IMG/VR virus record: IMGVR_UViG_3300022213_000011
Coordinates: 1 to 45,986 of that record
DNA: 45,986 nucleotides
From: a virus
Direction: 5' to 3' (one strand)
In this document: positions 36,776 through 45,986 of the stretch, in pieces
Layout of the letters: the number at the start of each line of letters is the position of its first letter
How positions within the stretch are numbered: the stretch's first letter is position 1
The notes under the pieces: generated by a model
Seen by the model: the letters and a program-made list of their open reading frames with translations, nothing else
What the model was told of the DNA's origin: nothing
The model's database searches: none
Translations under genes and position numbers: made by a program

Positions 36776-36783
36776 CGGGGGCC

Positions 36784-36843
36784 TTGCGCACCCGTGAGCT
36801 ATTCACCATTATACCCTCACGGCCCGGGCAATCCCGCCCGGCC
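36784..36843 (+). promoter_or_regulatory. Regulatory module copy A: promoter, dyad operator, leader hairpin
   Basis: TTGCGC (36784-36789), 17 bases, CATTAT (36807-36812). The spacer holds the dyad GTGA-GCTAT-TCAC (36794-36806). The leader contains a GC-rich hairpin at 36821-36843 (GGCCCGGGC with GCCCGGCC, one bulge). A strong ribosome site precedes ATG 36861. The same arrangement recurs at 37703, 38872 and 39410. Confidence 0.82.
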
Positions 36844-36860
36844 AGAAAGGGGAGGCCAGG

Positions 36861-37184
36861 ATGGCCAGCAAGAACGAGGGGTTCCAGGCGGTGCGCACGA
36901 TGCCTCGGCGGGAGCTGGGGTGGCAGGTCCAGGCGAACGAGCGCCTCGAGCGCTTCACGCGGTTCGCCGCCGAGCTCCTCGAGCCGTTCCCGGATCACAC
37001 GTACGAGCGCCGGCAAGTCATCGCGAGTCTCGCGCGCTACGTGCTCGCGCTCGGGCTCGACGGGGCGTACGACGGGCACACGTTCGAGGACTTCGGCGAG
37101 ATCGTCGAGGACGCACGCGAGCGCGGGCTCATCAGCTCGGACACCTACGACGCGATTTGCCGCTGGCTCGCGGAGGTGGTCTGA
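36861..37184 (+). CDS. Hypothetical early protein under module A
   Basis: A 107-residue helical protein (WQVQANERLERFTRFAAELL, YERRQVIASLARYVLALG, YDAICRWLAEVV) with a strong ribosome site supplied by the repeated module. Not recognised. Two bases after its stop the next gene starts. Confidence 0.65.
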   Translation: MASKNEGFQAVRTMPRRELGWQVQANERLERFTRFAAELLEPFPDHTYERRQVIASLARYVLALGLDGAYDGHTFEDFGEIVEDARERGLISSDTYDAICRWLAEVV

Positions 37185-37680: not shown

Positions 37681-37702
37681 CACCCGGGACCCGCCGGGGG
37701 CC

Positions 37703-37762
37703 TTGCGCGCCCGTGATAGATTCACCATCATACCTCCACGGCCCGGGCAATCCCGCCCGGCC
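37703..37762 (+). promoter_or_regulatory. Regulatory module copy B
   Basis: TTGCGC (37703-37708), 17 bases, CATCAT (37726-37731). The dyad here reads GTGA-TAGAT-TCAC (37713-37725), with a changed centre but identical arms to copy A. The leader hairpin (37740-37762) is identical. ATG 37780 follows. Confidence 0.8.
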
Positions 37763-37779
37763 GAACAGAGGGGCAGAAC

Positions 37780-38124
37780 ATGGCGACCTTCCGGATCTAC
37801 TACTCGCGGCCCGAAGCTTTCCGGGACCTTTCGCTCGGGTTCGAGTTCGCGGCGAAGTACGGCGTGACGGTCACGGCGGCGACGCTCGATCGCACGCACG
37901 TCTTTCTCCGCGAGATCGAGGCGGCCGACCTCCACGAGGTCTACCGCGTGTCGCAGGGCGAGATTTGGAGTCCGAACGGCGAGGCGCGCGAGCTCATCCG
38001 CTCCAAGGGCCTCGCGCACACGTCGATGTCCGTCGGCGACGTGATCGTCGACGCGGCCGGCGTCGCGCACATGGTCGAAATGGTGGGCTTTCTTCCCCTC
38101 CCGGCTCGGGAGGGCGCGCTGTGA
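37780..38124 (+). CDS. Conserved phage/plasmid protein of unknown function
   Basis: The 114-residue protein contains THVFLREIEAADLHEVYRVS, QGEIWSPNGEARELIRSKGL and HTSMSVGDVIVDAAG, wording I associate with a widespread uncharacterised family of phages and plasmids. It is likely a small alpha/beta protein. Its GTG/TGA junction couples it to the TGT-like gene, which may indicate joint function. Confidence 0.65.
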   Translation: MATFRIYYSRPEAFRDLSLGFEFAAKYGVTVTAATLDRTHVFLREIEAADLHEVYRVSQGEIWSPNGEARELIRSKGLAHTSMSVGDVIVDAAGVAHMVEMVGFLPLPAREGAL

Positions 38125-38849
38125 TCTACCTCGTCGGCGAAATGTCGAACGGCTCGGCGAAGCTCGCCGACACCTACCCGCGCGGGATCGGCCGGTGCTA
38201 CGTCGAGCGCCCGCTCGAGCCGTTCCCGGGCGAGCCGTGGATCCTCGACAACGGCGTTTTCCGCGCGTGGAACGCCGCGGGCCGCGACCCTTCGATCGAC
38301 TACGCGGACTGCTACGCCGCGTTCGAGGCGCGCCTCGAGAACGTCGCCGAGCTCGTCCGCGAGGACCGCGGGCCTCTGTTCGTCGTCGTGCCGGATCGGC
38401 CCGCGGACCCGTCCTCGTTCTGGACGTCGCTCGCGTGGCTCGACGACTACGAGCAGGAGCGCCAGGAAGAGCTCGATCCGAGCGGGTGGTACCACGGCGC
38501 GCGCATGATCCCGCTTTTCCTCGCGGTGCAGAACGGCATGACGCCGGAGCTCCTCGAGGCGGAGCGGTGCGCCGAGACGGACCGCCCGCTCCTCGAGCGG
38601 GTCGACGGGCTCTTCCTCGGCGGCACGGACGAGTTCAAGGCCGACACGCTCGACGCGTGGCGCGAGCTCGCCGACCGCCACGGCCTCCGGTTGCACTTCG
38701 GCCGGTGCACTCAGAGCAGGATCGCCGCGGCGCTCGAGGCCGGATGCGACTCCGCCGACTCCTCGCACCCGAACCGCCTCGGCGGCGAGCGGTGGGCCCG
38801 GTTCCTCGAGGCCTTCGACGCGGTCCAGGCCGCCAGGTCCGTCGCGTGA
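38121..38849 (+). CDS. TGT/DpdA-like TIM-barrel protein, possible base-exchange enzyme
   Basis: The 242-residue protein shows, in order, motifs matching tRNA-guanine transglycosylases: ILDNGVFRAW (compare DSGGF), LFVVVPDRP, PLFLAVQNGM (compare IVQGG), GLFLGGTDEFK (compare GGL), and LHFGRCTQSRIAAALEAGCD followed by SADSS. Phage DpdA proteins of this superfamily exchange guanine in DNA for a 7-deazaguanine. The protein is shorter than bacterial TGT (about 370). No FolE, QueD, QueE or QueC genes are present, so the base would come from the host. Start GTG 38121 overlaps the upstream stop. Confidence 0.6.
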   Translation: MIYLVGEMSNGSAKLADTYPRGIGRCYVERPLEPFPGEPWILDNGVFRAWNAAGRDPSIDYADCYAAFEARLENVAELVREDRGPLFVVVPDRPADPSSFWTSLAWLDDYEQERQEELDPSGWYHGARMIPLFLAVQNGMTPELLEAERCAETDRPLLERVDGLFLGGTDEFKADTLDAWRELADRHGLRLHFGRCTQSRIAAALEAGCDSADSSHPNRLGGERWARFLEAFDAVQAARSVA

Positions 38850-38871
38850 CGCCGGACGTCCTACTCCCCCC

Positions 38872-38931
38872 TTGCGCGTCCGTGAGCTATTCACCAATAT
38901 ACCCTCACGGCCCGGGCAATCCCGCCCGGCC
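38872..38931 (+). promoter_or_regulatory. Regulatory module copy C
   Basis: TTGCGC (38872-38877), 17 bases, CAATAT (38895-38900). Dyad GTGA-GCTAT-TCAC at 38882-38894 as in copy A; the leader hairpin at 38909-38931 is unchanged. ATG 38948 follows after an AAAAGGG ribosome region. Confidence 0.8.
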
Positions 38932-38947
38932 AGAAAAGGGTGCCACG

Positions 38948-39223
38948 ATGTCGACTTCCCGCTTCGCAGTCACGAACGACGCCGCTTTCATCGCCCGCGT
39001 TTCCAGCTTCAACCGCCGCGCCGAGTCGAAACTCCGCCGCTCGCTCTTCGCCGCGACCAAGGCGAACGCCGGCACGCCGTCGGAGCACTTCCGGTTCACG
39101 TTCGCGCCCGGCGTCGACGCGGCGACGGTCAACGAGCGGCTCGAGCGGCTCGTCGCCGCCGGCGCGGCCGCCCACCAGGTCGAGCTCCCGGGCGAGCTCG
39201 GCGCCGTGGCGGAGGTTCGCTGA
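38948..39223 (+). CDS. Small hypothetical protein under module C
   Basis: A 91-residue protein (NDAAFIARVSSFNRRAESKL, RRSLFAATKANAGTPSEHFR, ATVNERLERLVAAGAAAHQV). Basic N-terminal half, helical C-terminal half. Not recognised. Confidence 0.6.
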   Translation: MSTSRFAVTNDAAFIARVSSFNRRAESKLRRSLFAATKANAGTPSEHFRFTFAPGVDAATVNERLERLVAAGAAAHQVELPGELGAVAEVR

Positions 39224-39225
39224 CC

Positions 39226-39987
39226 ATGGCCGCCCGCCTCGCGACGTCCTACCGCGTCGAGAAAACCGCGCGCCCGGTCCACGACCGGGTCGCGCGGGCC
39301 GCGACCACCGAGTCGCACCTCACGGGCCTCCCGCTGGCGGACGTCCTCCTCGAGCGCGAGCGGGTGGCGCGCCTCGAGGAGCTACCGCCCCGGGAGTCGG
39401 CCGGGAGCCTTGCGCGCACAGTGATAGATTCACCATTATACCTCGCGGCCCGGGCAATCCCGCCCGGCCGAACGAAGGGGGAAAAGATGGCGAAGCAACC
39501 CGAGCGGTTCGCGGTGGTCTACCGGACGGGCGGGACGGCGCGGTTCAAGTGGAACCGCCTCTTCCGGGACTTCACCACGCGCGAGGTCGCGGACGCGGCG
39601 AAGGCCGAGCTCGAGCGCCAGGGCTACGCGGCCCACGTGCACGACGCCGCCCTCCTGGACGCGATAGGCCTCCCCGAGACGTACGGCGGGGGGGTCGGCC
39701 TCGAGGGCGTCCGGATCTACAACCGCGGCGACGTGGCCAACCACCCGCACTTCGGTATCGTCACGAAGGACGACGGCCAGAACGTGTGGGTCCAGGTCGA
39801 CTTCGACGCCGAGGACGAGGCGCCGGGCGAGACGTACGCGGTCGCGCGCTCCATGGTGGAGCACGTCGACGACGGGTACGCCCGGATCGTCACCGTTGCC
39901 GCCTACCTCGAGCGCCGCGAGCGCCGCGAGCGCCGCACCGCGGACATCGCGCGCCGGAAGGCGCTCGAGACCGGGAGGGGCGCTTGA
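39226..39987 (+). CDS. Readthrough frame: small ORF fused in frame through module D to the next gene
   Basis: ATG 39226 starts a frame (ARLATSYRVEKTARPVHDRV, LADVLLERERVARLEEL) that meets no stop before module D. It is translated through the promoter DNA (VIDSPLYLAARAIPPGR) and continues into the gene at 39487, giving a possible 253-residue fusion. The start repeats the TGACCATGG junction of 37187. Either the original stop was lost, or two products are made: a long one from upstream transcripts and a short one from module D. Confidence 0.5.
   Translation: MAARLATSYRVEKTARPVHDRVARAATTESHLTGLPLADVLLERERVARLEELPPRESAGSLARTVIDSPLYLAARAIPPGRTKGEKMAKQPERFAVVYRTGGTARFKWNRLFRDFTTREVADAAKAELERQGYAAHVHDAALLDAIGLPETYGGGVGLEGVRIYNRGDVANHPHFGIVTKDDGQNVWVQVDFDAEDEAPGETYAVARSMVEHVDDGYARIVTVAAYLERRERRERRTADIARRKALETGRGA
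39410..39471 (+). promoter_or_regulatory. Regulatory module copy D, inside an open frame
   Basis: TTGCGC (39410-39415), an 18-base spacer (one longer than other copies), CATTAT (39434-39439). Dyad GTGA-TAGAT-TCAC at 39421-39433 as in copy B. The hairpin GGCCCGGGC/GCCCGGCC follows (about 39447-39469). ATG 39487 is its gene start. Confidence 0.78.
39487..39987 (+). CDS. Hypothetical protein under module D
   Basis: The 166-residue product (RFAVVYRTGGTARFKWNRLF, AAKAELERQGYAAHVHDAAL, then GVRIYNRGDVANHPHFGIVT and QVDFDAEDEAPGET) resembles widespread phage small proteins that begin RFAVVYRTGGT, of unknown role. The ending is very basic (ERRERRERRTADIARRKA). A GGGGGAAAAG ribosome site precedes ATG 39487, supporting independent translation. 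Confidence 0.65.
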   Translation: MAKQPERFAVVYRTGGTARFKWNRLFRDFTTREVADAAKAELERQGYAAHVHDAALLDAIGLPETYGGGVGLEGVRIYNRGDVANHPHFGIVTKDDGQNVWVQVDFDAEDEAPGETYAVARSMVEHVDDGYARIVTVAAYLERRERRERRTADIARRKALETGRGA

Positions 39988-40379
39988 GCTCCGAGGCCTA
40001 CCGCGACCACGCCGGTCGCACGACCCCGCCGAGCTCGTGGGGGCCCGGGCTCGCCTACCTCGGCAACCTCGGCCGCGGCCGCGTGTGCACCGATCACCGC
40101 GGCGCGCGCCTCAAGGTTCTCGCGCAGAACGTCGGGAGCACGACGGTCCGGCGCTCCGGATCGGCCGCTCGCACGTTCACACGCGCGGACGGTTCGGTCG
40201 CTCAGCTCGGGCCGACGTCGGAGGAGATCACGCTCGCGCGCGGCACGGTGGTCCGCGTTCGTACTTCCACGGTCTCGTGCGCAGTATGCGCGGCCCACTA
40301 CGGCGACGCGGAGCCGTGCGACGAGGGGAAGCCGGTCAATTCGCCGCACCGGGCCACGGTTTCCTTGGGGGCGGCATGA
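39984..40379 (+). CDS. Hypothetical Cys-containing protein upstream of the Mom-like gene
   Basis: A 131-residue protein from TTG 39984 (four-base overlap). The C-terminal part has TVSCAVCAAHYGDAEPCDEG with three Cys (C-x2-C...C). Beta-rich middle (VGSTTVRRSGSAARTFTRAD, TLARGTVVRVRTST-type text). Its TGA overlaps the ATG of the Mom-like gene. In Mu a small zinc protein, Com, is coupled to mom; similarity here is positional only. Confidence 0.55.
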   Translation: MSSEAYRDHAGRTTPPSSWGPGLAYLGNLGRGRVCTDHRGARLKVLAQNVGSTTVRRSGSAARTFTRADGSVAQLGPTSEEITLARGTVVRVRTSTVSCAVCAAHYGDAEPCDEGKPVNSPHRATVSLGAA

Positions 40380-41167
40380 TCGGCGTGCAACGCTGGCGCG
40401 AGCGCCGCGACTCCTACCGGCCCGCCGGCGAGCGGATCCGCCCCGAGCTCTTCGACGTCGCGCCGATCTCGAGCGACCTCGTGGCGCGCGCGTTCGTCCA
40501 AGAGCACCACTACTCCGGGACCTACCCGGCCGCGCGGTTCCGCGTCGGGCTCTACCGCGGCGGCGAGCTCGTCGGCGTCGCCGTGTTCTCGCACCCGTGC
40601 AGTAACCGCGTTCTGACGAACGTGTTCACGTCCACGCCGGCGCTCGAGGCCGTGGAGCTCGGCCGGTTCGTGCTCCTCGACGAGGTCCCGGGCAACGGCG
40701 AGACGTGGTTCCTCGCGCGGGCGTTCGACCTCCTCCGCGCCGAGGGGATCCGGGGCGTAGTCTCGTTCTCGGATCCGACGCCGCGGACCAACGCCGCGGG
40801 CCGGGTCATCTTCCCGGGCCACGTCGGCACGATCTACCAGGCGCACAACGCACGATTCCTCGGCCGCGGCGACGCGCGGACGCTCAAGCTCCTCCCGGAC
40901 GGGCGCGTGTTCTCCAACCGCGCGGAACAGAAGATCCGCGCGGGCTCGCGCGGGTGGCGCTACGCGAGCGACCAGCTCGTCGCGCACGGCGCGGGCGTTC
41001 TCGAGGAGGGCGCCGACCGGGAGGCGCGCCTCGCGTGGCTCGAGCGCTGGACGGGGGCGTTGACGCGCCCGCTCCGGCACCCCGGCAACCTTCGGTACGC
41101 GTGGCCGCTCCGGAAGTCCGTGGCGCTCGCGACCGGCACCCCATACCCGAAGAGGCAAGCCGCATGA
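40376..41167 (+). CDS. Mom-like DNA modification protein (GNAT-type fold)
   Basis: The 263-residue protein carries AFVQEHHYSGTYPAARFRVG, LVGVAVFSHPCSNRVL, AVELGRFVLLDEVPGNGETW (ELGRF, then Asn/Glu-Thr), VVSFSDPTPRTNAAGRVIFP and GTIYQAHNARFLGRG. This layout matches the Mom family of acyltransferase-like phage proteins, which convert adenine to N6-carbamoylmethyladenine and protect phage DNA from restriction. ATG 40376 overlaps the upstream stop. Modification of this genome is predicted, not shown. Confidence 0.75.
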   Translation: MIGVQRWRERRDSYRPAGERIRPELFDVAPISSDLVARAFVQEHHYSGTYPAARFRVGLYRGGELVGVAVFSHPCSNRVLTNVFTSTPALEAVELGRFVLLDEVPGNGETWFLARAFDLLRAEGIRGVVSFSDPTPRTNAAGRVIFPGHVGTIYQAHNARFLGRGDARTLKLLPDGRVFSNRAEQKIRAGSRGWRYASDQLVAHGAGVLEEGADREARLAWLERWTGALTRPLRHPGNLRYAWPLRKSVALATGTPYPKRQAA

Positions 41168-41409
41168 CACACGAAGAGCTCAAGGCCCGCCGGGCCCGGC
41201 TCGAGCTGAGCCAAGGTACCCTCGCCAAGCGGCTCGGCGTCGACCGCTCCTACATCGCGCACGCGGAGAACGACGAGGGATTCGCGCGCCCGTGGTACCA
41301 CCTCGCGCTCCTCGCGATCGAGTACGAGGAGCGCCTCGTGCCGCTCCCCCGCAAGTGGACGAAGCCGGCGTGCCGCAGAGGGGGACGAGTCAAGAGGATG
41401 TCAACGTGA
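41164..41409 (+). CDS. XRE-family HTH regulator
   Basis: The 81-residue protein has a classic Cro/CI-type HTH: LKARRARLELSQGTLAKRLG then VDRSYIAHAENDEG, followed by a short helix and a basic tail (RKWTKPACRRGGRVKR). It is the second small HTH of the block and is coupled by ATGA to the Mom-like gene. It might control the four GTGA-N5-TCAC operators or mom timing; target not shown. Confidence 0.78.
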   Translation: MTHEELKARRARLELSQGTLAKRLGVDRSYIAHAENDEGFARPWYHLALLAIEYEERLVPLPRKWTKPACRRGGRVKRMST

Positions 41410-41918: not shown

Positions 41919-42208
41919 GCGACGAGCGCGGGGTGCTGACGAAGTGGAGCGACAACGTACTAATCGCGCGGGTGGGCGCTGCCTGTCGAGTAGCAAGCGA
42001 GGCTCTACCAAGTGACGACATTGATCGGGGCTTGAACCTGCTCAATGCACTACGAGAGGCGGGCTATGTCGTCGAGCCCATCGGCGCCGCGCCCGACGCA
42101 GGGGAGCGCGAGCGCACGGAGGGACATGACGAGGAACCAGAACCAGCGCACGACCTGCCACCCGCCGTGCTCGACGTGATCGCGGCGTCGGGGGAGGACC
42201 TCGGATGA
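41915..42208 (+). CDS. Hypothetical protein sharing its 5' end with the Lar-like gene
   Basis: A 97-residue product (SDERGVLTKWSDNVLIARVG, NLLNALREAGYVVEP, acidic tail). The first 25 bases of the gene differ by one base from the first 25 of the gene at 42205, so both begin MSDERGVL. Function unknown. Confidence 0.52.
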   Translation: MSDERGVLTKWSDNVLIARVGAACRVASEALPSDDIDRGLNLLNALREAGYVVEPIGAAPDAGERERTEGHDEEPEPAHDLPPAVLDVIAASGEDLG

Positions 42209-42229
42209 GTGACGAGCGCGGGGTGCTGA
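41915..42229 (+). repeat. Duplicated gene start (MSDERGVL)
   Basis: Bases 41915-41939 and 42205-42229 are identical at 24 of 25 positions and both are gene starts with ATGA overlap or similar. The gene at 42408 starts with a shorter version (ATGAGCGACGA). This suggests that accessory genes are inserted or exchanged by recombination at a common start sequence. Confidence 0.7.
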
Positions 42230-42411
42230 AGCCGTGTCCGTTCTGTGGGGGCGAAGCCAGTGTGCGGGCTGTCGCATCCGATGCCGACGAATGGGTTGAG
42301 TGTGGGTCGTGCCATGCCGTCCAGGGATCGGTCGAGAGGTGGAATCGCCGAGTTGAAACGGCGGAGGTCATGCGTGCGAGATCGAGCACCAACGCGAGGC
42401 GGGAGCGATGA
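42205..42411 (+). CDS. Lar-like restriction alleviation protein
   Basis: The 68-residue protein reads LKPCPFCGGEASVRAVASDA, EWVECGSCHAVQGSVERWNRR, the Lar family pattern: two C-x2-C zinc knuckles and a closing WNRR. Lar proteins of Rac prophage and phages modulate type I restriction in favour of incoming DNA. It sits near the Mom-like gene, consistent with an anti-restriction cluster. The ATG overlaps the upstream stop by four bases. Confidence 0.75.
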   Translation: MSDERGVLKPCPFCGGEASVRAVASDADEWVECGSCHAVQGSVERWNRRVETAEVMRARSSTNARRER

Positions 42412-45296: not shown

Positions 45297-45986
45297 ATGT
45301 CGCGCGGGCGCGTCGCTGTCGCGCACCGGCGACGCTTCAACGGAGACCCGGAGAACGTGAGCAAAGGCACCCGCACATATCGACGGATCGCGACGACGTT
45401 TTGGAACGATCCAGACCTCCGCCGGCGAGGGATCACAGGGGACCAACGGCTCCTCCTCCTGTACTACTTCACGGGCCCGCGGACGAACCTCGCGGGGCTC
45501 TATTGGCTCCCGCTCACGTACGCCGCCCAAGAGACCGACCTACCCCTCGAGGACGTCCGGCGGTGGACCCTCGGCGAGCTCGCGCCGTACGTGTCCTACG
45601 ACGTCGAGACCGAGGAGATCCTCGTCCACCGGCTCGCGTTTCACAACATCGGCGACGACCTCAAGGCGCGCGACAAACGACTCCAACCGATCGCGCGGAA
45701 CCTCTCCGACGCACACTCCGCGGAGCTCCTCGCGAAGTGGTTCGAGCTCTACCCGGCGTGGCCGATCGACCCCGAGACTATGGCGCCAATCCTCGATCCT
45801 GAAGGGGCAGGGGTAAGGGGCAGGGGTAAGGGGCATACCAAGGGGCATCCGAAGGGGCATACCAAGGGGCTACCCCAAGGGGCTACCCCAAGGGGCAGGG
45901 GTAAGGGGCAGGGGGAAGCCATAGCAGTAGCAGGTGCAGTAGCAGTAGCAGTAGCAGGGGCAGGGACAGAGACAGAGAGACAGAGC
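45297..45986 (+). CDS. Replication initiator, 5' part (continues at base 1 to 659)
   Basis: From ATG 45297 the protein has a helical winged-helix-like N-terminal domain: RTYRRIATTFWNDPDLRRRG, GDQRLLLLYYFTGPRTNLAG, LYWLPLTYAAQETDLPLEDV. This is the pattern of phage replisome organisers and DnaD-like initiators. VSYDVETEEILVHRLAFHNI follows. At about residue 168 the frame enters the iteron array and becomes Gly/Lys/Arg-rich. It stays open to the window end and, after removing the repeated 155 bases, continues to 659 (397 residues in all). No helicase or primase gene accompanies it, so it probably recruits host replication proteins. Confidence 0.85.
   Translation, partial: MSRGRVAVAHRRRFNGDPENVSKGTRTYRRIATTFWNDPDLRRRGITGDQRLLLLYYFTGPRTNLAGLYWLPLTYAAQETDLPLEDVRRWTLGELAPYVSYDVETEEILVHRLAFHNIGDDLKARDKRLQPIARNLSDAHSAELLAKWFELYPAWPIDPETMAPILDPEGAGVRGRGKGHTKGHPKGHTKGLPQGATPRGRGKGQGEAIAVAGAVAVAVAGAGTETERQS
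45802..45915 (+). repeat. Nine iterons inside the initiator gene, candidate origin
   Basis: Nine units of 12 or 13 bases begin with AAGGGGC: AAGGGGCAGGGGT twice, AAGGGGCATACC, AAGGGGCATCCG, AAGGGGCATACC, AAGGGGCTACCCC twice, AAGGGGCAGGGGT and AAGGGGCAGGGGG. Because 13 is not a multiple of three, the peptide changes from unit to unit while the DNA unit is kept, which points to selection on DNA. Lambda has its origin iterons inside gene O in the same way. Seven of the units are also visible in whole or part at bases 1-84. Confidence 0.75.
45832..45986. repeat. Right copy of the terminal direct repeat
   Basis: Matches 1-161 with one GCAGTA hexamer fewer. It covers iterons 3-9, the GCAGTA repeats and the ACAGAG repeats. 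Together with the continuous reading frame this shows that the contig closes on itself. Confidence 0.93.

Follow-up and report, generated by a model that had tools for sequence, protein, structure and literature searches.

TGT/DpdA-like and Mom-like genes under one module family in a 46-kb phage genome: a candidate for dual DNA modification

Can a small tailed phage alter both guanine and adenine in its DNA, with the host supplying the substrate for one of the two chemistries? This question is raised by the viral record IMGVR_UViG_3300022213_000011 (45,986 bases; "the window" below means this whole stretch of DNA). In it, a gene for a protein resembling tRNA-guanine transglycosylase (TGT) and the phage enzyme DpdA (38121, genes being named by their first position) is followed, after a gap of 1526 bases, by a gene for a protein resembling Mom of phage Mu (40376). 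A preliminary description, made from the sequence alone, had put the two genes 1.5 kb apart under one family of regulatory modules, which holds on both counts, and had raised the possibility that both bases are altered. Our analysis leans towards two independent DNA-modifying enzymes under a common promoter set, which would provide layered anti-restriction. It also brings out a point that the preliminary description had overlooked: the pair recurs in unrelated viruses, three times with the two genes touching or overlapping.

Identity of the two proteins

The motif order of TGTs claimed for 38121 is present (DNGVF, VPD, AVQNG, LGGT, HFGR, CDSADSS), and the protein matches Pfam TGT at 27.0 bits (cut-off 26.3, E 3e-6). 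It falls in phrog_15826 (E 1e-15), a family listed in PHROGs with unknown function. Profile–profile comparison with hhalign ties this family to the DpdA group of the MED16 type at a probability of 97 and E 1e-10, the 9g and DpdA2 sequences standing outside the comparison. Across 62 rows of the family, D43, N44, P91, D92, Q137, G167, G168, K173, H192, R195 and D213 are conserved in at least 58, and the positions of the catalytic aspartates and the base pocket (D43, D92, Q137, G167, G168, D213) in 60 or 61; all catalytic positions are present in 38121 itself. In the hhalign register to E. coli TGT (D143, Q187, D264), D92 falls on D143 and D213 on D264, at a probability of only 2.6, and D43 is placed on D89 by motif order only. 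The roles of D143 and D264 in the E. coli enzyme are presumed here.

Structural comparison of 38121 was based on an AlphaFold2 model (predicted local distance difference test, pLDDT, 90.5; predicted template modelling score, pTM, 0.89). Comparison of this predicted fold with TGT, which had been proposed as a check, gave a mixed picture. With VIA-align, 41 of 50 rows are TGTs, the top one being 1p0e with preQ1 (Z 14.2, root-mean-square deviation 3.3 over 210 residues). On the other side, pyruvate kinases equal TGT in VIA-align Z score, and Foldseek lists 50 matches to the model with no TGT among them, these being other folds, mostly barrels. Because pyruvate kinase scores the same as TGT, the fold alone is not decisive and the residues have to decide. 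Other results also count against a TGT assignment: the Pfam match is barely above its cut-off, and E<=0.01 is reached by only 4 of the 43 members of the family; profile searches of the PDB, one with the family alignment and one with the MED16-type DpdA alignment, find no TGT up to E 1; and the zinc site known from tRNA TGT is missing, CxCxxC occurring in 0 of the 43 rows of the family alignment, that of 38121 included. The zinc motif is likewise absent from seven sequences of the MED16-type group. Given this shared absence and the profile match at probability 97, we place 38121 in the TGT/DpdA superfamily as a compact member without a zinc site, predicted to be DpdA-like in action and not a canonical tRNA TGT.

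The Mom-like protein is a simpler case. With 85.4 bits against Pfam Mom (cut-off 27.1, E 5e-24), E 1e-28 against phrog_1384 and E 2.6e-6 against the solved structure of Mu Mom (PDB 8bv8), 40376 is by sequence clearly a Mom-family protein, as had been proposed. Its residues H45, Y46, D133 and Y154 align to H49, Y50, D140 and Y150 of the 8bv8 chain and are invariant in 12 of 12 close relatives, TGT-paired and unpaired alike. We take the catalytic residues of Mu Mom to be H48, Y49, D139 and Y149, an offset of one from the chain numbering.

Substrate supply and recurrence of the pair

The neighbours of the TGT-like family point to its substrate. Among the best 80 of 199 confirmed viral loci, supply genes (FolE/QueC/D/E or Vut_1) lie in the flanks of 31, compared with 0 of 80 control loci (p 1e-11), the control being the flanks of a single gene family, DUF5131, which is also a neighbour in the window. 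The QueF model used in these searches was built on one sequence and the FolE model on three, and the distances to supply genes were measured on stop-to-stop frames, so that they run short. For example, the gene order in Aoka is Vut_1 transporter, QueF and TGT-like family member, and in ReqiPine5 (L014) it is Vut_1, TGT-like gene and 3′-phosphoadenosine 5′-phosphosulfate (PAPS) reductase; in Sonali a second TGT-like gene accompanies QueC, QueD and QueE, and R29Z has FolE and QueD. Relatives annotated as DpdA-like include those of the Arthrobacter phages Aoka and Sonali and of Mycobacterium phage Phegasus and others. Since the family adjoins genes of preQ0 synthesis or transport, a 7-deazaguanine substrate is well supported by genomic context, and phrog_15826 can be placed firmly next to 7-deazaguanine metabolism. 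Relatives also occur on plasmids, in 154 plasmid records of which 139 are from Pseudomonas (large plasmids, such as L015, L017 and L018); the 30 among the matches listed are all annotated as hypothetical. As a separate observation, a PAPS reductase gene follows the TGT-like gene at short distance in two phages that are not related, as the next gene in ReqiPine5 and as the third in Erythrobacter R6L (L005).

The window itself shows no match to FolE, QueC, QueD, QueE, QueF or Vut_1 up to E 10 with home-made models, and a Pfam scan of 20 window proteins finds no 7-deazaguanine synthesis or transport gene, in keeping with what had been claimed. With a DpdA-like gene present and synthesis genes absent, salvage from the host is the natural reading and the likely source of substrate. 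The published record of phages that have DpdA only is mixed. According to PMC8306585 and PMC6884629, 2′-deoxy-7-amido-7-deazaguanosine (dADG) replaces ~0.13% of G in MED16, 7-11 has traces, and Orion, whose host lacks preQ0 genes, has no 7-deazaguanine. Salvage is therefore possible, yet the modification may be slight.

Recurrence was assessed from both sides of the pair. The Mom sample comprises 73 distinct viral loci, 71 of them scanned as whole records with the TGT-like profile (all except L171 and L176); 50 of these records were also searched with the MED16-type profile and for QueC, and genes of the L111 type were sought in flanks only. Some TGT-superfamily gene is found in 10 of the 71 Mom-bearing records. 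Six have a strong match to the TGT-like family (G082, G086, G095, G121, G126, G128), two more a MED16-type or related gene (G083, G146) and a further two an L111-type gene (L111, L186). The L111-type proteins (L111, L186, L205, L214) are called TGT-like from their motif order and a profile match at probability 91; L111, L186 and L205 have no Pfam match. G146 (L183) combines Mom with QueC, QueD, QueE, FolE and a TGT-like gene ~10 kb away, and from its gene content would be the leading candidate for a complete dual modification that makes its own substrate. Among 80 genome loci, a TGT-like gene lies near Mom in three (L203, L205, L214). In the Noviherbaspirillum bacterial genomes L205 and L214, the L111-type gene and a Mom gene lie on opposite strands, 741 bases apart.

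The closest arrangements are found in three loci. The TGT-like stop and the Mom start overlap in L105 (ATGA) and in L203, an Actinobacteria metagenome-assembled genome (9189-10780; GTGA); in L118 (9968-11492) the gene order is reversed with one base between the two. The TGT-like genes of L203 and L118 are sisters, touching Mom in opposite orders. When the Mom-paired rows are mapped on a tree of 62 TGT-like rows, seven changes are required, and well-supported branches force at least five of these; 122 of 500 label shuffles are as low in changes, that is, shuffled labels do as well. The pairing label is thus scattered on the tree, a pattern to be expected if the pair has been either assembled or lost repeatedly. 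The window and the loci of Mom relatives have almost nothing else in common (RuvC with L104, DUF5131 with L107), and the pair is therefore not a matter of mere shared descent.

The statistics are less clear-cut. A TGT-like gene is near Mom in 6 of 73 loci against 1 of 80 in the control, which is only just significant (p 0.045). The distance between the genes is <=1.5 kb in 6 of 9 cases (p 8e-4), with the cut-off chosen after the distances had been seen, the window left out and the near-identical L205 and L214 counted separately. From the TGT-like side, Mom is above its cut-off in 1 of 80 viral records (G047). Among 14 named phage and plasmid records, the sole true Mom carrier is HGTV-1, which was fetched for its Mom; the 13 chosen for their TGT-like gene have no accepted Mom. 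Most TGT-like records are without Mom, and most Mom records without TGT.

Several candidates were set aside during this survey. L003, the sole relative from a single-sequence search, was a chance match of 30 residues lying among tail genes. In Synechococcus phage JY42 (L020), the supposed Mom (28.6 bits, 149 aa) was judged an XF1762-like relative, and it went uncounted along with the sub-threshold Mom matches of G029 and G069 and the TGT-like match of G139, which contains a stop. The MED16-type profile matches in G082 and G121 (both weak) and in G126 were the same genes as their TGT-like family matches.

Genes and modules around the pair

The features of the locus are collected in Table 1. In both genes of the pair the start codon overlaps the stop of the preceding gene, GTG in 38121 and ATG in 40376. 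Each of the two operons begins with a module copy (37695 and 39402): the TGT-like gene is the last in its own, and the Mom operon has a separate copy. Each module consists of a TTGCGC box, a GTGA-N5-TCAC palindrome, a TATACC-like box, an invariant 23-base inverted repeat (hairpin) and a ribosome-binding site. The 23-base hairpin core occurs exactly four times (36821, 37740, 38909, 39447) against 0 expected; compared with shuffles, the hairpin folds little better in two of the four copies (z -0.74, -1.33). From their layout, the modules between 36776 and 39491 look like a phage regulon under a common repressor, and the HTH gene at 41164 is perhaps that repressor.

Table 1. Coordinates of the paired genes, the modules and their neighbours in the window.
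Feature	Position	Strand	Basis
TGT/DpdA-like protein, 242 aa, phrog_15826, without zinc site	38121-38849	+	Pfam, PHROGs, invariant residues, AlphaFold2, VIA-align
Mom-family protein, 263 aa	40376-41167	+	Pfam Mom, phrog_1384, PDB 8bv8
Promoter-like module, heads TGT-like operon	37695-37784	+	repeat family, alignment, hairpin pattern, folds
Promoter-like module, heads Mom operon	39402-39491	+	repeat family, alignment, hairpin pattern, folds
Promoter-like module upstream of gene 36861	36776-36865	+	repeat family, alignment, hairpin pattern
Promoter-like module upstream of gene 38949	38864-38953	+	repeat family, alignment, hairpin pattern
Small gene, 114 aa, without trusted family, first in TGT-like operon, overlaps TGT-like start	37780-38124	+	open reading frame (ORF) list
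Gene of unknown family, first in Mom operon	39487-39987	+	ORF list, Pfam, PHROGs
Gene of unknown family, overlaps Mom start	39987-40379	+	Pfam, PHROGs, sequence
Helix-turn-helix (HTH) regulator (HTH_3/HTH_31), ATG overlapping Mom stop	41164-41409	+	Pfam HTH_31 (E 3.5e-7 on 41167-41409); start from sequence
Lar-like zinc ribbon, marginal match	42205-42411	+	Pfam, NCBIfam, phrog_599

The small first gene of the TGT-like operon has a sub-threshold Pfam match only and no PHROG match. A Lar-like anti-restriction gene had been placed 1 kb beyond Mom, and the position is right (~1.04 kb) while the identity is marginal: Pfam Lar_restr_allev gives 28.8 bits (cut-off 28.6) and phrog_599 E 3e-9, and NCBIfam Lar stays at 25.5 bits, below its cut-off of 39.6.

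The genome has a G+C content of 69% and encodes a terminase large subunit, portal, head protease, tape measure protein, RuvC-like resolvase, SbcC-like protein and DnaD-like protein; no tRNA was found in its 45,986 bases. Its ends form an imperfect terminal repeat (1-161 and 45826-45986, 96% over 161 bases, the copies differing by short tandem units), and from these matching ends the genome is probably near complete, with either circular permutation or terminal redundancy. A DNA methyltransferase-like ORF (1920-2579; phrog_498, E 1e-29) lies shortly upstream of the terminase; it aligns to part of the profile only and is a possible third modification gene.

Competing explanations and known systems

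How, then, might the two genes work? We give a slight preference to two independent modifications. The TGT-like enzyme would take host-made preQ0 or preQ1 and swap it for guanine in phage DNA, with D213 as the aspartate nucleophile and D43 as the general acid, and the Mom-like enzyme would, like Mu Mom, attach a small acyl-type group at N6 of adenine in that DNA. With the Lar-like gene added, this would amount to layered anti-restriction. Because most members of each family occur alone, each would need its own substrate, and two independent modifications are the simplest arrangement. We infer activity on DNA, host salvage, simultaneous alteration of both bases and an anti-restriction benefit from homology, conserved residues, shared regulation, the genomic tie of the family to 7-deazaguanine supply and the recurrence of the pair. 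The occurrence of the pair in several unrelated viruses suggests that the DNA is disguised in two layers from bacterial defences that cut it. Two further facts tell against this account: the closest TGT relatives of the window (L021-L024) have no Mom in their records, and the DpdA-only phages of the published record are weakly modified or unmodified.

The latter fact is also an argument for a possible but clearly less probable explanation, in which the two genes, collected along with further small accessory genes, form an anti-restriction island with no real dual modification and the TGT-like enzyme stands idle or near-idle in the actual host, where preQ0 is scarce. The absence of 7-deazaguanine in Orion and the mere traces in 7-11 and MED16 fit such an island, as do the presence of the pair in only 10 of 71 Mom records and the marginal p value for proximity. 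However, touching or overlapping pairs in three loci and at least five tree changes exceed what loose clustering would lead one to expect, and every catalytic position is kept in 38121. It is unlikely that the target of the TGT-like protein is instead RNA or a free base (host tRNA or host queuosine metabolism) and that it has nothing to do with phage DNA. Its TGT ancestry and its relatives on Pseudomonas plasmids would agree with such a role, but the family lacks the zinc motif throughout and matches the group of MED16 DpdA, whose phage DNA contains dADG.

Adjacency and coupling leave room for a possible joint pathway, and it is conceivable, though quite improbable, that the two genes form a repeatedly assembled cassette acting jointly, the boldest form being that Mom acylates the inserted 7-deazaguanine to give a base undescribed so far. 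Least probable of all is one pathway on one base, with the TGT-like enzyme inserting an amine-bearing 7-deazaguanine that the Mom-like enzyme acylates in place of adenine: the repeated adjacency, three times overlapping or touching, and the fact that enzymes of the GCN5-related N-acetyltransferase (GNAT) fold acylate amines speak for it, but most Mom relatives have neither TGT nor QueC in their record, so that Mom must work alone, the residues aligned to those of Mu Mom are conserved whether or not a member is paired, and the window has no QueF for making preQ1.

If the two enzymes do act on the DNA of the virion, guanine and adenine would be altered by two chemistries in one small phage, one of the chemistries being paid for by the host. 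L105, L118 and L203 can serve as compact loci for testing whether stacked hypermodification overcomes restriction systems against which a single modification fails, and they also suit the question of whether one enzyme builds on the product of the other.

Each half of the pair has known counterparts. Phage DpdA (MED16 type; 9g, CAjan and nt-1 DpdA2; PMC6884629 and PMC8306585) resembles 38121 in its DNG, PD and late D motifs and probably in its TGT-superfamily barrel; many of its relatives are linked to preQ0 genes, and singletons with host supply are known (MED16, 7-11). The phrog_15826 family is distinct and shorter, and here it is paired with Mom. The genes of Aoka, Sonali and the Phegasus group, annotated in GenBank as DpdA-like tRNA-guanine transglycosylase, belong to this same family and have the catalytic positions in common. 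They adjoin Vut_1, QueF or QueC/D/E, whereas the window has no supply genes, and, unlike the window, their scanned records contain no Mom. Mu Mom (8bv8) and phrog_1384 resemble 40376, with Pfam Mom well above cut-off and the four aligned residues kept; compared with Mu Mom, 40376 has a longer C-terminus and a TGT-like gene nearby.

The pairing had been thought undescribed, and this holds for the recurrent close pair, of which we found no description in the available parts of the open-access PMC literature (including PMC6884629, PMC8306585, PMC7824862 and PMC8670742). Coexistence at the level of the genome is not new, because PMC7824862 describes a deazaguanine system together with momylating enzymes for the jumbo phage PA5oct. 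Our own scan of PA5oct gave one Mom match, below cut-off, and no QueC, and so did not reproduce that claim. As described there, PA5oct is a giant genome with several modification systems, whereas the case presented here is a 46-kb tailed phage with a recurring close gene pair, and it is this recurring close pair in smaller phages that appears to be new.

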